The position numbers and the translations under genes are program-made. Shown one piece after another: positions 19,866 to 26,815 of a stretch of 34,866 bases of DNA; within the stretch, counting starts at the first letter, position 1, and each line of letters opens with the position of its first letter. The notes under the pieces were generated by a model. It did no database searches. It saw only the letters and a list, made by a program, of their open reading frames with translations, and was not told where the DNA came from. Source of the DNA: a virus. The stretch is taken from positions 1 through 34,866 of the IMG/VR virus record IMGVR_UViG_3300032282_001777, one strand, 5' to 3'.

Positions 19866-20636
19866 TTATTTTCTGTAGCTTTCCCAATCAAACACAATCA
19901 ACTTTCCGCCACCCTGGCGCATGCGATCCATGATTCGATCGCCAAGAAACTGCTTCAGCTCGTCGCCTGACAAGTTGCTGATCAGAATCGTTGGCTTCAC
20001 CTGCTCGTAGCGCTTGTTGATTACCTCGAAGAGCATTTGCTTTTCGTGGTCAGATCCACTGGTCGCGCCGACTTCGTCCAGGACCAGCAGCTGCGGGGAC
20101 ACGTAGGATTTAATCATATCCGACTCGCTCATCGCTGCGCCGTCGCTGTAGGTCCTGCGGATGGCACGCGTGAGATCAGACACGGTGACGTAGGTAACAG
20201 ATGACCCGGTCTGTATCACCGAGTTAGCGATTGCAGCTGCCAGGTGCGTCTTGCCTGTGCCTGGCAATCCGGCAAAGATCATCCCCGTTCCAAGCTCTTT
20301 TCGCTCGTACCAGGTGTCGATGTACCACTGGGTGCGCTTCAAGGAACGCTGCTGGCCTTCATTAGACGCGATATAGGACGAGATCGTCGCTTCCCTATAC
20401 CTAGGTGGCACCCCACTACGTGAAATCGTCTCCTGGACGCTCTGCTTGCGTCGCTCCTCGATAATGCGGTCCATTTTTGCGTCGTGTTCTGCCTGTGCCG
20501 CCTTGGCGCACTCAGGGCATTTGTTGGTAATCACGTCCTTGCCGCCGATCTTCAGCACGCGGGCATCGTAGTCGCCATGCGTGGGGCAGGTCTTGATCGT
20601 GGAATTGATATCCATCGCAATGTTAGAAACTTCCAT
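19866..20636 (-). CDS. DnaC/IstB-like replicative helicase loader (256 aa)
   Basis: AAA+ ATPase that would load the host DnaB helicase at the phage origin. Walker A GLPGTGKT (123-130), Walker B LLVLDE (183-188), sensor ILISNLS with Asn221 and an arginine-finger region GDRIMDRMR. An N-terminal zinc-finger-like part has Cys17, Cys40 and Cys43 with His20. The length is that of DnaC-type loaders. It follows the initiator-like gene with a 14-base overlap, giving the lambda O/P-like order initiator then loader. An alternative start is Met8. Confidence 0.88.
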   Translation of the reverse strand: MEVSNIAMDINSTIKTCPTHGDYDARVLKIGGKDVITNKCPECAKAAQAEHDAKMDRIIEERRKQSVQETISRSGVPPRYREATISSYIASNEGQQRSLKRTQWYIDTWYERKELGTGMIFAGLPGTGKTHLAAAIANSVIQTGSSVTYVTVSDLTRAIRRTYSDGAAMSESDMIKSYVSPQLLVLDEVGATSGSDHEKQMLFEVINKRYEQVKPTILISNLSGDELKQFLGDRIMDRMRQGGGKLIVFDWESYRK

Positions 20637-21285
20637 CTTCGTTTACCCCCTTGTGGTAGTCGACCTTGGTGAAGTCGCGGTTGATCGCGTTGAGCTTCTC
20701 TGGCTTGGCGAATGCACGTGCGTTTCTGATCCAGGTGCGCAGGGCCGCATCCCAGTCCTTCATCGTTGAGCCTTTGGCTCGGTGGTAGTCGGTGAACTTA
20801 GGCAGCTCGACATCCAGGCTAATGCCCAGATCTCTGGCGAGCTTCAAATGGCTATCGCGTGGCAAGAAATTTTCAGGCAGTTGGCTAGCGCGTTTTTTGG
20901 CGCTCTTGGCGCTATCTGTCTCTGCCTCTCCCTCTGTCTCTGTCTCTGCCTCTGTCTCTCTCTCTGAGATAGCAACTTGATAGCTAGGCGCTAGCATCGT
21001 GCTAGCATCCAAAAAGAAACCGTTATCAATCAGGGCTTTAAGACCAGTGGAAATTTCTTTCTCGGTCATGCGCAGTCTGAACACCAATTCATCGACTGAT
21101 GCGTCAAATGACCCGTCTTTGGACTCGCTTGCTAGCAACCAGAGCAATGGCGCTAGCGCTTTGCTAGCAACTGGCAAGCACATAAATTGACGGTCGTTTA
21201 GAAGGCCGCGGTGGATCTTTATCCACGGTGGGCAACGATCTTTGTAATGCTGGAACAATGCCCAGTTCTTAGGAACAATCTTCAC
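20623..21285 (-). CDS. Replication initiator-like protein (O/DnaT-type, 220 aa)
   Basis: Starts at GTG 21285 with GGGAGG just upstream. Residues about 15-100 form a helix-turn-helix-like N-terminal domain (ALAPLLWLLASES, DELVFRLRMTEKEISTGLKA). Residues about 106-131 are a Glu/Thr linker encoded by a hexanucleotide tract. Residues about 135-195 (LPKFTDYHRAKGSTMKDWDA, ALRTWIRNA) match the C-terminal block of phage replication and primosomal DnaT-like proteins. Its gene contains six GCTAGC palindromes, a candidate origin as in lambda O. The protein would bind the origin and recruit the loader encoded next. Confidence 0.75.
   Translation of the reverse strand: MKIVPKNWALFQHYKDRCPPWIKIHRGLLNDRQFMCLPVASKALAPLLWLLASESKDGSFDASVDELVFRLRMTEKEISTGLKALIDNGFFLDASTMLAPSYQVAISERETEAETETEGEAETDSAKSAKKRASQLPENFLPRDSHLKLARDLGISLDVELPKFTDYHRAKGSTMKDWDAALRTWIRNARAFAKPEKLNAINRDFTKVDYHKGVNEDGSF
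20884..21168. other. Candidate replication origin: cluster of six GCTAGC palindromes
   Basis: GCTAGC occurs at 20884, 20990, 21001, 21131, 21152 and 21163. Within the two groups, start distances are 11, 21 and 11 bases, close to whole helical turns. Two copies extend to the perfect palindrome TTGCTAGCAA (21129-21138 and 21161-21170, 32 apart) and one to GCGCTAGCGC (21150-21159). The cluster lies in the N-terminal half and linker region of the initiator-like gene. Lambda-type phages keep their origin iterons inside the O gene, so an origin is a reasonable inference. Confidence 0.5.
20916..20968. repeat. Degenerate CTCTGT/CTCTGC hexanucleotide tract
   Basis: About 50 bases of near-tandem TCTGTC/TCTGCC units, nearly pure pyrimidine apart from regularly placed guanines on the plus strand. 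They encode the Glu/Thr-rich linker of the initiator-like protein in units of two codons, so gain or loss of units keeps the frame. It may form an easily unwound or bent element beside the palindrome cluster. Confidence 0.7.
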
Positions 21286-21419: not shown

Positions 21420-21761
21420 CTAGAACGGGATTGAGTCGTTAAACTCTGCCTCTTGTTTTTGTTCTGTCTCTTTCCCGCCAATTAGATCTAGTTCTGAAAT
21501 CGTCAGCCTTACGTAGACCTTGTTGTCTTTCTCTTTCTGCGAAAGCTTGCCGGTGACAGCGACAGCTTTCCCTTTGGTCAAATATTGATGCAGCGCCTGG
21601 CCGCGTTTTCCGAACAGTGCGCAGTCAAACCACATCGTGCTGGGTTGATCGCGGGTGCCAGTGTTTACGGCCAGACTAAAATTCAAAACGGGGTCACCGT
21701 TTGGCATTTCACGCAATTCAGAATCACGGCCAAGACGGCCAATACAATTATAGGTGTTCAT
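21420..21761 (-). CDS. ssb: Single-stranded DNA-binding protein (113 aa)
   Basis: OB-fold protein: NCIGRLGRDSELREMPNG, then VLNFSLAVN, MWFDCALFGKRGQALHQYL, TKGKAVAVTGKLS and a final strand VYVRLTISELDLIGG. It ends with the acidic tip DSIPF used by SSBs to contact partner proteins. Shorter than bacterial SSB because the disordered linker is brief, which is usual in phages. GGAG lies before the ATG. It sits between rusA and the replication genes and acts in replication and recombination. Confidence 0.95.
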   Translation of the reverse strand: MNTYNCIGRLGRDSELREMPNGDPVLNFSLAVNTGTRDQPSTMWFDCALFGKRGQALHQYLTKGKAVAVTGKLSQKEKDNKVYVRLTISELDLIGGKETEQKQEAEFNDSIPF

Positions 21762-22126: not shown

Positions 22127-22348
22127 TTAGTAGTCGCGGCCGACAACCAGGTCGTGCGCTGTTAGATCTATCCCGCGCTCCCAGGCAATCTCAAGAACAC
22201 GCTTCTGCCATGCCGAGGGGACTCGCCCGGTTTTTTGCCAGCGAGAGACGTTTGATGGGTCGCAAGAAAGCATTCGAGCAGTGGCTCGCACGCCGCCAAA
22301 TGCCCGTACAACAACAGTTGCCGGAGAAATCAAACCTTGAGTGTTCAT
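22127..22348 (-). CDS. Cro/YdaS-like HTH regulator (73 aa)
   Basis: Small helix-turn-helix protein: VVRAFGGVRATARMLSCDPS leading into NVSRWQKTGRVPSAWQKRVLE, the Cro/YdaS (carph-isopro-like) pattern. It is the first gene of the leftward operon and is divergent from the CI-like repressor across 65 bases. It would antagonise the repressor and commit the phage to lytic growth. Strongly supported as a DNA-binding protein; the Cro role is from position. Confidence 0.82.
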   Translation of the reverse strand: MNTQGLISPATVVVRAFGGVRATARMLSCDPSNVSRWQKTGRVPSAWQKRVLEIAWERGIDLTAHDLVVGRDY

Positions 22349-22356
22349 GCGTGTCT

Positions 22357-22385
22357 ATTTTGCCAACATGTGTGGTTTTTCGCAA
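22357..22385 (-). promoter_or_regulatory. Candidate early promoter for the leftward (cro) operon
   Basis: On the minus strand, TTGCGA (22385-22380), a 17-base spacer and CAAAAT (22362-22357) give a sigma-70-like promoter with 4 of 6 matches in each box, ending 8 bases before the cro-like ATG. A TGCCAA half-site (22361-22366) overlaps the -10 box and fits an operator. Prediction by eye only. Confidence 0.45.
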
Positions 22386-22413
22386 CGGTGCTGCTTGCCA
22401 AGCATCAGGAATC

Positions 22414-23025
22414 ATGCCATGCCAAGACATGCCTATAGATACCCAATGGTTTAATGACCGCATCCTTGCCCAACACACATCGCAGCGAAAGCTTGCGAAG
22501 TTGATGGGAATCGACTCATCTGCACTGAGCCTGGCGCTGCGCGGTAAGCGCAAGCTCTCGATCGATGAGGCCTCGCAGTTGGCCGTGCTTTTGAATTCCA
22601 GCCTGCAAGAAGTGCTGACCGCGGCCGGCGCTCCACCAGCTGCAGATCGCGTCAGGATCATTGGCTATATCAATGGCGATTGCGGGGTCCAGCTGGAAGC
22701 AGACGGCATCCACGAGACTGTCGCGCTGCCACCCAATCTGCCCCAGGACACTGTCGCACTGCAGGCGCACACGGCCAGGACCAGTCAGCACCCGATCGAT
22801 GGCTGGCTATATTTCATTTCAGAATCTAAATGCAGGCCAGAGCAAACCATCGGCACCGTGGCGCTGTGCGCCGTAAAGAATAACGGCCTGCTGATTGGAC
22901 ACGTCGAGCGCGGCTACCGTGCCGGCACCTACAACCTGATGCTCAATACTGGCGAGACAAAGAAGAATTTGGAACTCGCCTGGTCCTGCCCGATCCTCTG
23001 GATTAAGACCACCACTGGCAACTAA
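22414..23025 (+). CDS. CI-like phage repressor (203 aa)
   Basis: I place the start at ATG 22414 (or 22429, five codons later); the longer frame would run through cro. The N-terminus has an XRE-type helix-turn-helix (about residues 22-45: TSQRKLAKLMGIDSSALSLA). The C-terminal half (VRIIGYINGDCGVQLEA to the end) has the strand layout of the S24/LexA-like fold. The expected catalytic Ser motif (G-x-S-M) is absent, with HTARTSQHPIDGW in its place, and no obvious Lys partner is seen. It keeps lysogeny by blocking the divergent and downstream promoters. RecA-stimulated self-cleavage looks unlikely. Confidence 0.8.
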   Translation: MPCQDMPIDTQWFNDRILAQHTSQRKLAKLMGIDSSALSLALRGKRKLSIDEASQLAVLLNSSLQEVLTAAGAPPAADRVRIIGYINGDCGVQLEADGIHETVALPPNLPQDTVALQAHTARTSQHPIDGWLYFISESKCRPEQTIGTVALCAVKNNGLLIGHVERGYRAGTYNLMLNTGETKKNLELAWSCPILWIKTTTGN

Positions 23026-23041
23026 TGCCAATTAGTTGGCA
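23019..23041. promoter_or_regulatory. Overlapping dyads at the end of the repressor gene
   Basis: CAACTAAT-GCCA-ATTAGTTG (23019-23038) is a perfect 8-bp inverted repeat around the repressor stop codon. Overlapping it, TGCCAA-TTAG-TTGGCA (23026-23041) is a 6-bp dyad whose TGCCAA half also appears three times in and around the cro/cI gap (22361, 22396, 22420). It may be an operator for the plus-strand operon; a terminator is less likely because no T run follows the stem closely. Confidence 0.45.
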
Positions 23042-23045
23042 CTTG

Positions 23046-23074
23046 TTGCTTTTACTTTTTAGTGTTGCTAATAT
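23046..23074 (+). promoter_or_regulatory. Candidate promoter for the recombination/integration operon
   Basis: TTGCTT (23046-23051), 17 bases, TAATAT (23069-23074) in the 86-base gap between the repressor and the next gene. The -35 box begins 5 bases after the dyad at 23026-23041, a position that would allow repressor control. Boxes match the consensus only partly. Confidence 0.35.
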
Positions 23075-23111
23075 CACATCACTGGTTATTTAATTACATC
23101 GATGAGGACTT

Positions 23112-23360
23112 ATGAAAACTGACAGCTTGAAACTCAAACAAGAAAACGTCGCCAGCTACAACGCGGTGATGGCGTCACCTGCAATGCAGGCAATCCTTGC
23201 CGGCGTTGTCGCAGCTGAGAAAGCCCGCAAGGCAGCTGACGCAGAATGGCTGGAGCAACGTCGCCGCATGACTGATGCCGAGCTGGACGCCGAGTTTGCG
23301 GAAGATATGCGCCGCATGGCGTTGCGCGAAGAAGCAATCGCCAATGGCTGGGGTAAATAA
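23112..23360 (+). CDS. Hypothetical early phage protein (82 aa)
   Basis: Preceded by GAGGACTT before the ATG. Highly charged and helical (AEKARKAADAEWLEQRRRMT, then ELDAEFAEDMRRMALREEA), without a recognised domain. First gene after the repressor in the plus-strand operon that leads to the recombination genes. Small acidic or charged proteins at this place often act as host-takeover or anti-defence factors, but nothing specific can be said here. Confidence 0.6.
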   Translation: MKTDSLKLKQENVASYNAVMASPAMQAILAGVVAAEKARKAADAEWLEQRRRMTDAELDAEFAEDMRRMALREEAIANGWGK

Positions 23361-23361
23361 C

Positions 23362-23562
23362 ATGACGTATTCAGAATCCATTGCACTGCTCGAAGAGCTG
23401 ACAGCGCTGCAAGTGCAGTCAAATGATCAAGAGCGTTTAGATTCGTATCGCCTTGGATACTACAAGGCCTGGCTTGCTCACGTGATTTCTTCTACCCCGG
23501 CGCAACAACAAATTTTGAAAGATTTGATCAGCTACAAAAAGGAGGCACAAAATGTCGGTTGA
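23362..23562 (+). CDS. Hypothetical early phage protein (66 aa)
   Basis: The start at ATG 23362 (MTYSESIALLEEL) lies one base after the previous stop, and the stop overlaps the nuclease gene by 11 bases. A helical protein with a tyrosine-rich middle (DSYRLGYYKAWLAHVI). The ORF can be read further upstream, but that would overlap the previous gene. No family recognised. Confidence 0.58.
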   Translation: MTYSESIALLEELTALQVQSNDQERLDSYRLGYYKAWLAHVISSTPAQQQILKDLISYKKEAQNVG

Positions 23563-24184
23563 TGTTCAGCAGGGGTCATACGAGTGGCTGATGGCGCGCG
23601 TTGGTCACGTCACCGGCAGCAAGTTTCGCTCTGTGTTAAGCCGCCTGAAAACTGGTGCGCCTTCCCAGGAGCGCAAAGACTATCTGACTGACATCACGAT
23701 TGAGCGCCTGACCGGCCAGCCCACCCAGCATTTCGTGAATTCAGCAATGGCCTGGGGAACCGAGCAGGAGCCTCACGCGCGCAATGCCTACCTGCGCCGC
23801 ACCAATTACAGGGTCGACCAGGTTGGCTTTATCAAGCACCCAGAATTGATGGTTGGCGTCAGCCCTGACGGCATCATCGAGATGGGCGAGGGCATCCTGG
23901 AGATCAAAGCGCCCACCAGCGCTACACACCTGCGCACGCTTGAGGAAGGCATGGACCCTGTGCATCAGGCGCAGATCCAGGGCGCGATGTGGATCACTGG
24001 CGCGACGTTTGCTGACTTCGTGTCGTATGACCCACGCATGCCTGAAGGCCTCGAGCTGTATGTGCAGCGCGTGTCGCGTGATCAGGATTTCATTGATCGT
24101 TTGAAGAATGAAGTGAATGTTTTTTTGGCCGAAGTTGATGAGAAAATCGTAACACTGAAGGAGATTTCTAATGTTCGTAGATAA
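23552..24184 (+). CDS. YqaJ/lambda-exonuclease type recombinase nuclease (210 aa)
   Basis: PD-(D/E)XK exonuclease that resects double-strand ends for phage recombination. QQGSYEWLMARVGHVTGSKF is the usual N-terminal block; GVSPDGII carries Asp106, and LEIKAPTSATH carries Glu117 and Lys119; QAQIQGAMW (from residue 139) provides the following Gln motif. A strong AAGGAGG lies upstream. It overlaps the Erf gene by 14 bases, so nuclease and annealing protein form a Red-like pair. Confidence 0.93.
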   Translation: MSVDVQQGSYEWLMARVGHVTGSKFRSVLSRLKTGAPSQERKDYLTDITIERLTGQPTQHFVNSAMAWGTEQEPHARNAYLRRTNYRVDQVGFIKHPELMVGVSPDGIIEMGEGILEIKAPTSATHLRTLEEGMDPVHQAQIQGAMWITGATFADFVSYDPRMPEGLELYVQRVSRDQDFIDRLKNEVNVFLAEVDEKIVTLKEISNVRR

Positions 24185-24764
24185 AGCAAACCCTGAATTT
24201 TTCACCGCTCTTGCAGGCGCTCAGTCTGAGATTGAGAACGCATCAAAGAGCAGCGTGAATCCGCATTTCAAAAACAAATACGCCGACCTGGCTGAGGTGC
24301 TGAACACCGTGCGTCCTGTGTTCGCCAAGCACGGCCTCAGCATCTTGCAGTCAACCGCAATGGAGCCTGGCGTCAGCGTCTCGGTCACCACGGTGATCGG
24401 CCACAAGGCAGGTGGCTATGTGACCAGCATGGCCAGCTGCGTGCCTGCCAAATGGGACGCCCAGGGCATCGGTGCCGCCACGACCTATCTGCGTCGTTAC
24501 AGCCTGGCTGCAATGTCTGGCGTGTCGCAAGAGGACGACGATGGCAATGCAGCTGCGCATAACAAGCCAGCGCCTGCAGCTGTTGTACGTCAGCCGTCAA
24601 AGGCGTTGACCGACATCCTGGCCTCAATCGAATCAATCACCAATGTCGATGACCTGGCCGCGGTCCGAGCCTCGTTGAGCAGCTTGAGTGACGAGGAACG
24701 TAACATCGCTATTACGGCCGGCGTAAACAAGAAGGCAGCGCTTGCCTCTAAGGCGGTCGCATGA
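24171..24764 (+). CDS. erf: Erf-type single-strand annealing protein (197 aa)
   Basis: ERF superfamily: ALAGAQSEIENASKSSVNPH then FKNKYADLAEVLNTV, KHGLSILQS and ATTYLRRYSLAAMSGVSQED followed by DDG. The conserved NP-F-N-KYADL and TY-RRY-L blocks are all present. It anneals complementary strands exposed by the preceding nuclease. The C-terminal part (about 130-197) is a linker and small helical domain. The start overlaps the nuclease gene; the stop overlaps a membrane-peptide gene (ATGA). Confidence 0.93.
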   Translation: MFVDKANPEFFTALAGAQSEIENASKSSVNPHFKNKYADLAEVLNTVRPVFAKHGLSILQSTAMEPGVSVSVTTVIGHKAGGYVTSMASCVPAKWDAQGIGAATTYLRRYSLAAMSGVSQEDDDGNAAAHNKPAPAAVVRQPSKALTDILASIESITNVDDLAAVRASLSSLSDEERNIAITAGVNKKAALASKAVA

Positions 24765-24889
24765 TCCCGCACGACTTCAAAAACCTAAAGATCCGTCAGC
24801 CACGCACTGACGGATGGCAGGAAACCTTGGCTGCTATTGGCTTCATTTTGACTATTCTTGGAATCATTCTCTTGGGAATTTTACTATGA
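24761..24889 (+). CDS. Small single-pass membrane protein (42 aa)
   Basis: ATG 24761 overlaps the erf stop and TGA 24889 overlaps the next start, both as ATGA, so it is embedded in a translationally coupled chain. The first 20 residues are polar and basic (IPHDFKNLKIRQPRTDGW); the rest is a strong hydrophobic helix (LAAIGFILTILGIILLGILL). Probably N-in. Early membrane peptides in temperate phages can be exclusion, Kil-like or lysis-timing factors; I cannot tell which. Confidence 0.65.
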   Translation: MIPHDFKNLKIRQPRTDGWQETLAAIGFILTILGIILLGILL

Positions 24890-25113
24890 GTAATGCACTG
24901 AGCTATTGCGACTTCATTGCGCACATCATTTCACGGTCGCTAAAGGATGCGAACAAAGACGAGTACTACATGCTGAGTGCCGTCAGCCCGCCTCACTACG
25001 ACCTGTCTCCAACTGGCGTCTTTCTGTCGACCAAAAAGACCATCGAGGTCGAGGATCGCTGGGGCAAGCGCTACCTCGTCACCGTCGAAGAGGTCGAGGA
25101 AAACGCCCCATGA
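24886..25113 (+). CDS. Hypothetical phage protein (75 aa)
   Basis: MSNALSYCDFIAHIISRSLK starts on the ATGA overlap with the membrane-peptide gene, and the stop overlaps the next start. Mixed alpha/beta, with a C-terminal strand pair KKTIEVEDRWGKRYLVTVEE and an acidic tail. No known family. The position between recombination and excision genes suggests a DNA-metabolism accessory, without direct evidence. Confidence 0.58.
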   Translation: MSNALSYCDFIAHIISRSLKDANKDEYYMLSAVSPPHYDLSPTGVFLSTKKTIEVEDRWGKRYLVTVEEVEENAP

Positions 25114-25286
25114 AAGAGACGCCCAGCTTTTTCACCCTTCGTAACCTCAGAAGTGTGGCCACCTGGTATGCAAAACGCGCCAGGACTGGTGGCCGAGATC
25201 TGAGCGATTTGCGTACCGACGAACAGCTGCGCCAGTGGCGCGACATCCAAACCAAGACCTGGAAAAAGAGAGACGACCATGAGTGA
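25110..25286 (+). CDS. Hypothetical basic phage protein (58 aa)
   Basis: Starts on an ATGA overlap at 25110 and ends 8 bases into the excisionase-like gene. Rich in Arg and Lys (RNLRSVATWYAKRARTGGRD, then QWRDIQTKTWKKRDDHE), so possibly nucleic-acid binding. No family recognised. Coupling on both sides supports expression. Confidence 0.55.
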   Translation: MKETPSFFTLRNLRSVATWYAKRARTGGRDLSDLRTDEQLRQWRDIQTKTWKKRDDHE

Positions 25287-25512
25287 TCTAATGACTACCG
25301 CCGAGCTTTCGGTTCGCTGGAAGATGAACCCCAAGAGCCTGAGCAACTGGCGCGTGCGCAATGTTGGACCCAGCTGGGTCAAGCTTGGCAGCGGCCGAAA
25401 TTCGCGGGTGCTTTACCGCCTGGCCGACATCGAGGCCTTCGAGCAGCAGAATCTTGTGAGCGATCCAGAAAAAAATTCTGCGACCCATATGCGACCCAGG
25501 GAGGGAACCTAA
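25279..25512 (+). CDS. Excisionase / AlpA-like HTH protein (77 aa)
   Basis: Small MerR/AlpA-like winged helix: MTTAELSVRWKMNPKSLSNW then RVRNVGPSWVKLGSGRNSRV and LYRLADIEAFEQQ, the pattern of phage Xis and AlpA DNA-binding factors. It lies directly before attP and the integrase gene. Its last codons overlap the left 20-bp attP-flanking repeat. It would bend attP DNA and steer the integrase to excision. AlpA-type transcription activation is an alternative. Confidence 0.78.
   Translation: MSDLMTTAELSVRWKMNPKSLSNWRVRNVGPSWVKLGSGRNSRVLYRLADIEAFEQQNLVSDPEKNSATHMRPREGT
25479..25498. repeat. Left attP-flanking repeat (possible integrase arm site)
   Basis: TGCGACCCATATGCGACCCA consists of two tandem TGCGACCCA units and matches 25699-25718 at 19 of 20 positions. 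It is placed 46 bases left of the tRNA-derived core, inside the 3' end of the excisionase-like gene. Paired tandem half-sites on both sides of the core are what tyrosine integrase arm sites look like. Confidence 0.6.
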
Positions 25513-25544
25513 ACTACAGGGGGGTCATAAGAAATTGTTTTGAT

Positions 25545-25589
25545 TGGCTCCCCGAGTAGGACTCGAACCTACGACCTAGCGATTAACAG
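25545..25589 (-). other. attP core: 3' half of a tRNA-Asn(GTT) gene
   Basis: Read on the minus strand, this block runs from the anticodon loop CTGTTAA (GTT anticodon at 25587-25585) through the 3' anticodon stem, the variable loop, the T arm GTAGG-TTCGAGT-CCTAC, the acceptor strand TCGGGGA, discriminator G and CCA (25547-25545). The 5' half of the tRNA is not present beyond 25589, so this is not a working tRNA gene but the identity segment by which the phage restores the host gene after integration. It sits between the xis-like and int genes. The 172 bases between those genes hold nothing else I recognise. Confidence 0.88.
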
Positions 25590-25684
25590 ACAGCTGTGAT
25601 AATCGCATCAGTGTCCGTCTATTGACATCAGACGCCTGCTTTGATTGGGTTTTCGTGATGCGGAAACCCAGTCGGAGGAATGTC

Positions 25685-26815
25685 ATGGAACACTGTGCTG
25701 CGACCCATGTGCGACCCATAGAACGAGACAAACAGGTGCCAGGCCTGCACATCAAGCACGGCACAAGAGGGTCAGCCTGGTATCTCTATTACCGCACCAA
25801 AGAAGGCCTTGAACGCCGGCCCAAGCTTGGCAGCACCGAGGTATTGAACCGCACCCAGGCCAGGGATCAGGCACGAGCCATCCTGCGCCAGGCAGCTGCC
25901 GGTGAAGATCCAAAGAAGCAGCTGGACCTGGCCAAGGCCTACACCATCGAAGATCTGCGCAACGAATACGACCGCCTCCACGCCTCGATCGAGGTCAAGG
26001 CATCAACGCGCCGCGCTGAGGGCTACATCTGGGACAAGCATATTATTCCGTTCTTTGGGCGTAATAAGCCCGTCAGGAGCATCACCAAGCAGGAGATCAT
26101 CGCCATCAAGGGCAAGATGAGAAAGACGCCCACGCAGGCAAATAGGACGCTTGCGTTGCTTTCTCACTCCCTGAACCTGTCAGAGGACTGGGGATGGAGA
26201 GACGAGCAGACCAACCCGGTCTACCGCGTCAAGCGCTACAAGGAGAAAGCTCGGCAGCGCCTGCCTGACGCCAGCGAGGCACGCCGCCTGCTGACCGTTC
26301 TGCGCAGCTGGAGGGAGGAGGAGCCGTACTTTGTCAGCCTGGTCCTGTTGCTGATCTTTACAGGGTGCCGTCGAGGTGAGGTGATGAACAGCAGGCGCAG
26401 CTGGTGGTATTCCGACCGCCTGGTCCTGCCGGATTCAAAGACCGGCCAGAAGGTCATTCCAATCAGCACCCACGCCTGGGATGTAGTGCTGGCCACGCCT
26501 GAGATGAAAGGCAACCCCTACCTGATTGTCGGCCGCAAAGAGAAGTCGCACATAAAAGATCCTAGGAAGCTCTGGGCGCGCTTACTGAAGGAGTCAGGGA
26601 TAGATAATCTGAACATGCACGACCTGCGCCGCCTGTTCGCCTCGACATCAGTGTCGTCTGGCATAAGCCTAGAGCAAACGATGCAACTGATGGGTCACAC
26701 CCAGGCGCAGACGACCAAGCGCTATGCGTTCCTTATGACCCCAGAAAAGATTGCCGCAATGCAGGCGACAGGCGATGCGCTGGCGATGATCGAAAAAAAG
26801 CCCCTGCCGGAGTAG
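25685..26815 (+). CDS. int: Tyrosine-family integrase (376 aa)
   Basis: I choose ATG 25685 because GGAGG lies 6 bases upstream; a TTG at 25622 would add 21 residues. An N-terminal arm-binding-like domain (about 12-80), a core-binding SAM-like domain (about 88-185) and the catalytic domain follow. Catalytic residues by motif: Arg229 in TGCRRGE, Lys252 in DSKTG, His312 and Arg315 in HDLRR, His338 in GHTQ and Tyr347 in KRYAF. Adjacent to attP in tRNA-Asn. The gene's 5' end carries the right 20-bp repeat, and its 3' end overlaps a minus-strand terminator. Confidence 0.95.
   Translation: MEHCAATHVRPIERDKQVPGLHIKHGTRGSAWYLYYRTKEGLERRPKLGSTEVLNRTQARDQARAILRQAAAGEDPKKQLDLAKAYTIEDLRNEYDRLHASIEVKASTRRAEGYIWDKHIIPFFGRNKPVRSITKQEIIAIKGKMRKTPTQANRTLALLSHSLNLSEDWGWRDEQTNPVYRVKRYKEKARQRLPDASEARRLLTVLRSWREEEPYFVSLVLLLIFTGCRRGEVMNSRRSWWYSDRLVLPDSKTGQKVIPISTHAWDVVLATPEMKGNPYLIVGRKEKSHIKDPRKLWARLLKESGIDNLNMHDLRRLFASTSVSSGISLEQTMQLMGHTQAQTTKRYAFLMTPEKIAAMQATGDALAMIEKKPLPE
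25699..25718. repeat. Right attP-flanking repeat (possible integrase arm site)
   Basis: TGCGACCCATGTGCGACCCA, the second copy of the 25479-25498 repeat in the same orientation, 109 bases right of the tRNA-derived core and inside the first codons of int. Because it codes for ATHVRP here and ATHMRP in the other gene, coding constraint alone does not explain the match. Confidence 0.6.

Follow-up and report, generated by a model that had tools for sequence, protein, structure and literature searches.

Iteron origins nested in an initiator gene are already known from phage lambda and from the plasmid pSK41. In lambda, the O protein binds iterons within its own gene, the adjacent region opens, and O binds the single strand of that region, with two iterons and the adjacent region being enough for unwinding (PMC5043065, PMC7466680). 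The Rep protein of pSK41, a Firmicutes plasmid, has a winged-helix N-terminal domain, and it binds four Rep boxes that lie centrally in the rep gene, where they encode a linker that is dispensable for function (PMC5703833). The iteron plasmids RK2, F, R6K, and P1 have helically phased direct-repeat iterons beside an opening region (PMC5043065), and at bacterial oriC double-strand boxes are followed by the DnaA-trio, a short-period repeat that is thought to be read as a single strand (PMC10797057).

The locus described here lies in a 34.9-kb window, which is the whole stretch of viral DNA that was analyzed. It contains a group of GCTAGC sites that, in our assessment and without experimental origin data, very likely belongs to a lambda-like replication origin nested in the initiator gene. 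The element is a row of 11-bp repeats that runs into a purine-rich tract. Like lambda ori and the Stx-phage origins, it lies in the middle of the initiator gene, has multiple iterons, and has a loader gene next door; the lambda-type criteria of phased, constrained sites inside an initiator coding sequence and of a helicase loader that follows are met. The lambda ori sequence, as read here, also shows the same order of iterons, T-poor strand, and inverted repeat. Two other lambda-type criteria are not met. In lambda, O dimers bind iterons that are inverted repeats of 18-19 bp, spaced 20-24 bp apart; the iterons here are direct repeats of 11 bp that recur every 11 bp exactly, and in place of an adjacent AT-rich opening region there is a GAGACA-type repeat of 49% GC, so that the tract does not qualify as a classical AT-rich opening element. 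Iteron plasmids have longer iterons, which lie outside the rep gene, and their opening region is AT-rich, unlike the present tract. The DnaA-trio unit is 3 nt long and AT-containing, versus 6 nt (GAGRVA) here, and its criterion, a 3-nt repeat 3'-G/A-A-T-5' beside DnaA-boxes, is not met. The likeness to pSK41 extends to boxes in the gene centre that encode the linker (here array and tract encode residues ∼93-124), with dispensability of the linker known for pSK41 only; the pSK41 boxes differ from the present iterons, and a GAGACA tract is not known to be described for that plasmid (PMC5703833).

The original prediction had drawn attention to six GCTAGC palindromes in 285 bases of one gene, and a direct count bears out both the positions and the spacings that it gave. 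The window holds six copies, all inside the gene at 20623-21285 (minus strand), at 20884, 20990, 21001, 21131, 21152, and 21163. The spacings are 11 bases (20990/21001) and 21 plus 11 bases (21131/21152/21163), and TTGCTAGCAA occurs twice, 32 bases apart (21129-21138 and 21161-21170). From dinucleotide content, ∼11 copies are expected window-wide on both strands, so the total is not high; what is high is the clustering. Synonymous-codon shuffling within the gene gave a mean of 0.90 copies, and none of 20,000 shuffles reached six, in line with the predicted excess over chance. Codon resampling from the usage of the window gave a mean of 0.53, again with 0 of 20,000 reaching six, and chance and codon bias are ruled out by these two procedures as the source of the cluster. 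Of all 64 palindromic hexamers, GCTAGC alone exceeds four copies in a stretch of 285 bases. Its sites do not share one codon phase, with GCT-AGC read as Ala-Ser and nG-CTA-GCn read as x-Leu-Ala.

While the six sites are real, a set of six palindromes does not capture the repeating unit, which is an 11-bp direct repeat, GCTAGCANNNT, with a palindromic core. Four such units follow one another with an exact 11-bp period from 21006 down to 20968 (GCTAGC, GCTAGC, GCTATC, GCTATC), the order on the coding strand being GGTTTCTTTTTGGAT-GCTAGCACGAT-GCTAGCGCCTA-GCTATCAAGTT-GCTATC-TCA-GAGAGAGAGACAGAGGCAGAGACAGAG... The original prediction overlooked the GCTATC units at 20979 and 20968 and the T-free GAGACA tract behind the array. 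All parts of the element lie on the minus strand. Iterons C1 (21001..21006), placed by site count and relatives, and C2 (20990..20995) read GCTAGC; C3 (20979..20984) reads GCTATC, where comparison shows GCTTGC or GCAAGC in most relatives; and C4 (20968..20973), also GCTATC, has 3 nt between its end and the tract, likewise in nearly all relatives. The tract (20915..20964) is 50 nt long, T-free, and purine-rich, consists of repeated GAG(AGA/ACA/GCA/GGA), and is presumed to be the opening or helicase-loading zone; at the protein level it encodes a disordered ETETE linker between the two domains of the initiator. Directly behind it is a possible weak hairpin (20885..20915, TAGCGC...GCGCTA), in a place where many relatives have strong ones. 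The sixth GCTAGC (20884..20889) lies at the far end of this weak inverted repeat and was not found at the corresponding place in diverged relatives. Upstream of the array lie site A1 (21163..21168), 162 bp before C1 and supported by constraint on codons 39-40; site A2 (21152..21157), which follows A1 at 11 bp, frequently reads GATAGC in relatives, and is under weaker constraint; and site A3 (21131..21136), present only in some relatives and without synonymous constraint. Conservation of the six sites thus holds for 20990, 21001, 21163, and mostly 21152 (G[C/A]TAGC), and fails for 21131 and 20884. With only some of them conserved in relatives, the six palindromes were rejected as a single functional set.

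The gene that holds the whole element (20623..21285, minus strand, GTG start) encodes an O-like replication initiator of 220 aa, as judged from profile matches and AF2 models. Residues 1-129 match phrog_26426 'replication protein' (6e-33), and the C-terminal part matches phrog_1408 (replication-initiation PHROGs). A DnaT-like match at the C terminus (PF17948, 2e-4) is sub-threshold at 21.4 bits versus a cut-off of 25; membership of the DnaT primosomal family is not met by that cut-off, although PHROG replication proteins do match this part. The N-terminal domain, residues 1-106 (20968..21285, minus strand), is a predicted winged helix (AF2 pLDDT 88.0) that is presumed to bind the iterons, and residues 111-132 have pLDDT <50 in the AF2 model, as expected of a disordered linker. 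Profile searches returned no DnaA-like match, no RepA_N Pfam match was found in the initiator, none of the searches carried out here reported a match to the lambda O sequence, and a structure search with the full model gave no significant match. With the N-domain model alone, Foldseek returned only middling winged-helix matches (E ∼1). The top four VIA chains (Z 6.1-6.6, rmsd 2.9-4.8) were 4pql, 4pt7, 5kbj, and 4pta, which we take to be N-terminal domains of pSK41-type Rep; their titles read 'initiator', 'MDR initiator', and 'Rep-DNA complex'. A VIA Z below 8 for a predicted model may mean only a common winged helix, and kinship to RepA_N is not proven.

The next gene (19866..20636, minus strand) encodes a DnaC-like helicase loader (IstB_IS21, 4e-26; phrog_50, 1e-76). 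Genes for a single-strand binding protein (21420..21761, minus strand; PF00436, 9e-20) and RusA precede the initiator gene. Having the loader and the single-strand binding protein as neighbors supports the origin reading; GC skew, which the original prediction had proposed to plot, shows no clear turning point over the window and counts against it. A small terminase gene lies ∼1.5 kb from the element. A packaging site was considered and set aside, as the element travels with the N-domain of the initiator. The window also has a temperate-phage control region (22127-26815) with a CI-like HTH gene (22210-23025, plus strand), a Cro-like gene (22127-22348, minus strand), and an integrase gene (25622-26815, plus strand).

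In relatives, the array, its period, and the tract are conserved as DNA, independently of the protein. N-domain homologues found by protein search (47-76% identical) carry GCTAGC at matching distances from the gene start (118, 129, 150, 187, 198, 220, 280, and 291), and no GCTAGC is present at those distances in loci related through the C-terminal domain alone. In a codon alignment of 71 homologues, codons 93-117 are nearly without synonymous change, with observed/expected ratios mostly of 0-0.25 versus ∼1.1 elsewhere. Leu is kept as CTA, the codon in C2, in 68 of the 71, Ala as GCT in 70, and Glu as GAG in 66-70, and the codon after this Glu ends in A in nearly every case. Outside this stretch, strong constraint is seen on one pair alone, codons 39-40 (GCT AGC), which make up the site at 21163 and have ratios of 0.19 and 0.26; the site at 21152 reads GCTAGC or GATAGC in most of the homologues. 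Synonymous loss of the sites in relatives, which would have refuted the original prediction, was looked for, and the outcome for the core sites was the opposite, codons 93-117 being almost fixed. Periodicity was measured over the 55 nt that precede the tract, using 81 divergent sequences (<75% identical in that region). The self-match is 0.48 at lag 11 (z 32.7 against shuffles) and 0.43 at lag 22 (z 20.2); other lags are at ∼0.25, and a control stretch taken from these genes shows no such peak. Since 11 is not a multiple of 3, this period cannot arise from codons. The conservation of the core sites supports the suggestion of a new iteron type and of an origin that, as in lambda O, would sit within the initiator gene, in the absence of data on binding or origin activity.

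In the gene of the window alone, the T-free run is not significant given the amino acids (12% of resamples), and the case for the tract therefore rests on relatives. We collected 112 non-redundant homologues by protein, both among viral contigs and in genomes of GTDB (Variovorax, Bradyrhizobium, Rhizobiaceae, Planctomycetota, Gemmatimonadota, Bacteroidota, Thermodesulfobacteriota, and others); a few of the searched loci came via a 27-nt tract pattern. GAG-RVA-GAG is present in the linker of 105 of the 112, and the remaining seven have the purine tract in another frame (L176, L184), displaced (L172), or in a pyrimidine version (L175, L180-L182). In L172 (212 onward), the N-domain and the tract are separated by an inserted segment that resembles an HNH endonuclease. 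In L175, L180, L181, and L182, the coding strand bears the reverse complement of the tract (TCTGTCTCTG or CTCTTCTCTT) behind GCTAGC-type iterons, and this version on the coding strand counts against the explanation that we prefer.

A 24-nt version of the tract, CCAGAGACAGAGACAGAGACAGAG, occurs in at least 120 stretches of viral contigs. Among the matches listed, 80 tract loci were read, and nearly all are initiator genes, from several unrelated N-domain families: ∼60 belong to the family of the present initiator, and nearly all the remainder are initiators of other types, among which two are Phage_rep_org_N. Because these 80 loci were chosen by the tract, they are uninformative on how often initiators carry it; what they show is that it is a marker of initiator genes. 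The one clear exception is L206, where a long GAGACA tract (reverse strand of the locus, 2376-2399) lies behind a terminator-like hairpin, and no initiator was found around it. The other initiator types have their own repeats just upstream of the tract (GATCGCA, GTCACG, GGAACGCA, TGTAC, GGGGACACT, and others). None of 397 other genomes from the phylum to which the Variovorax carrier belongs contains the 18-mer CCAGAGACAGAGACAGAG.

Three main iteron classes share the same layout, namely GCTAGCANNNT, CGTAACGAAAC (L052, L053, L158, L159, and others), and GATATCANNNT. On a maximum-likelihood tree of the N-domain, built with the iteron-encoded part removed, iteron class changes 10 times versus 32.6 times in shuffles; the CGTAACG class forms one clade (100/97), and the GATATC class lies within one clade (100/94). 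This co-variation between iteron and DNA-binding domain is as predicted by direct recognition of the iterons by the N-domain, for which there are no binding data. A further iteron type, GACGCCAAAGC, stands as a perfect 11-bp tandem before the same tract in L233.

Protein binding, strand opening, and helicase loading by the element are inferred. In the proposed mechanism, the winged-helix N-domains of the initiator would bind C1-C4 side by side on one DNA face, perhaps with a second initiator complex at the A1/A2 pair, 162 bp away. The bound initiators would strain the duplex, and the adjacent T-free GAGACA-type tract would open; since the tract is without self-complementarity, both melted strands would stay unfolded. 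The DnaT-like C-domain and the DnaC-like loader could place the host DnaB helicase at the opened tract. Transcription of the initiator gene may assist opening, because sense RNA made from the tract forms an unusually favorable hybrid with the template. As a duplex, the tract (GC 0.49, T-free) is only slightly weaker than average (-1.34 versus ∼-1.42 kcal/mol per step), and as a single strand its region has the least predicted structure nearby (mean -0.8 kcal/mol per 44 nt at the best offset). The tract probably serves strand opening or helicase loading, and whether it contributes as an unstructured landing zone, as a single-strand code, or through an R-loop remains open.

Our current hypothesis for the tract could be refined, rather than excluded, by a sequence-specific single-strand code like that of the DnaA-trio, with the initiator or loader binding the repeating AGAG of one strand in steps of 6 nt. 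We regard this as a real possibility, if somewhat short of an even chance. Positions 1-3 and 6 of the GAGRVA hexamer (G, A, G, A) are 97-99% fixed, beyond the needs of DNA that is merely T-free or unstructured, and the strictness of AGAG in every unit favors a sequence-specific reading; the hexamer set was partly selected on the tract, and the protein-selected alignment of 71 homologues shows the same codons. The tract is also common to unrelated initiators, and precedents exist in the DnaA-trio, in ssDNA binding by plasmid Rep and RctB (PMC10797057), and in the binding of single-stranded AT-rich DNA by lambda O (PMC7466680). However, no conserved second binding domain was found across the carriers, whose C-terminal domains differ widely, and in four relatives it is the complement that lies on the coding strand. 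It is rather unlikely that the tract acts through an R-loop, in which transcription of the initiator gene would leave purine-rich RNA stably paired with the template and open the duplex (transcriptional activation). The energy of the sense RNA:DNA hybrid minus that of the duplex is indeed most favorable exactly at the tract (-0.20 versus ∼-0.05 per step; antisense +0.09), nearly all of the 80 loci read among the matches listed have the purine strand as initiator coding strand, and transcription is required by lambda ori (PMC5043065). Yet purine richness alone explains the energy bias, the pyrimidine strand is sense in L175 and L180-L182, and a stable hybrid does not require a strict hexamer. 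Primase start sites (CTG opposite CAG) are also unlikely as the meaning of the tract, as the tracts of phiPLPE, L150, and L176 are without CAG.

Three further readings fare worse. The tract could be a recombination boundary at which phages exchange the C-terminal domain of the initiator, and one N-domain is indeed joined to many C-domains exactly behind it. We consider this improbable, as it leaves the phased iterons and their change with the N-domain unexplained, and sharing across phyla together with strict codon constraint needs direct selection; the exchange of C-domains could be a side effect. A little more improbable still are operators through which the initiator would repress its own transcript: phased intragenic sites could act as a roadblock, and A1/A2 stand apart from the core array, but a roadblock leaves unexplained the fixed tract, its constant 3-nt distance from the last iteron, its sharing by unrelated initiators, and the hairpins behind it. 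Scarcely credible, and already contradicted by the present results, is selection at the protein level for an acidic Glu-Thr linker with biased codons and no DNA function. Most carriers do read the tract as ETETE, in a linker that AF2 predicts to be disordered, but the homologous initiators of L200 and L245 (46% identity, 104 residues) read it as RDRDRD versus ETETE, L151 reads it as EKRREE, and L180 reads its reverse complement as SVSDS. In L216, the initiator ORF (domain E = 3e-29) ends seven bases before the tract. These different codon frames and the position after a stop codon argue that the tract is a DNA element and not a protein feature. In addition, GAG serves for almost every Glu within the tract and ACA for every Thr, and codons do not account for the 11-bp period.

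Beyond the nested origin itself, our broader proposal is that the (GAGACA)n-type tract is a host-independent origin element that has not been described so far. One single-strand code for opening or helicase loading would have been retained by unrelated initiator families of phages across many phyla, which would have swapped the iterons and the DNA-binding domain in front of it and the C-terminal domain behind it; on this proposal we remain evenly divided. The literature searched as full text does not describe the element (GAGACAGAG, an ETETETE linker, or 11-bp repeats in phage initiator genes), but subscription journals were mostly outside that search, which makes this weak evidence that the 11-bp direct-repeat classes and the non-AT-rich GAGACA tract are new. 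No experiment showing origin activity of the element exists here or in the literature found. If the proposal is true, phage origins could be read from sequence in very many uncultured viruses by locating the tract and reading the iterons before it. It would separate the variable, initiator-specific part of an origin from an invariant part, and the role of the invariant GAGACA tract would become testable where opening does not rest on AT-richness. It would also relate winged-helix domains to 11-bp iterons (GCTAGC, CGTAACG, GATATCA, and others) by a code, and would provide orthogonal origins ready for use in vectors.

Perfect hairpins are enriched directly behind the tract, where stems of at least 8 occur in 14 of 132 cases versus 1, 0, and 0 further on, and stems of at least 7 in 20/132 versus 2/131, 0/129, and 1/125 downstream. 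Their recurrent loops are TAAC, TGAC, and TAGC. Those in L202, L232, L234, L005, L010, L189, L219, and L195 have TAAC or TGAC loops and are possibly a third origin module; as a universal module the hairpin was rejected, being enriched yet found in a minority of loci and weak in the window. Across L004-L061, many different C-terminal domains are fused to one and the same N-terminal domain, with the junction in every case just behind the ETETE tract, which points to strong modular exchange of the C-domain. Lastly, seven loci (L114, L116, L119, L122, L123, L140, and L141) combine near-identical arrays with tracts whose 6-nt units vary in number and kind, a pattern such as slippage or the exchange of units would leave.
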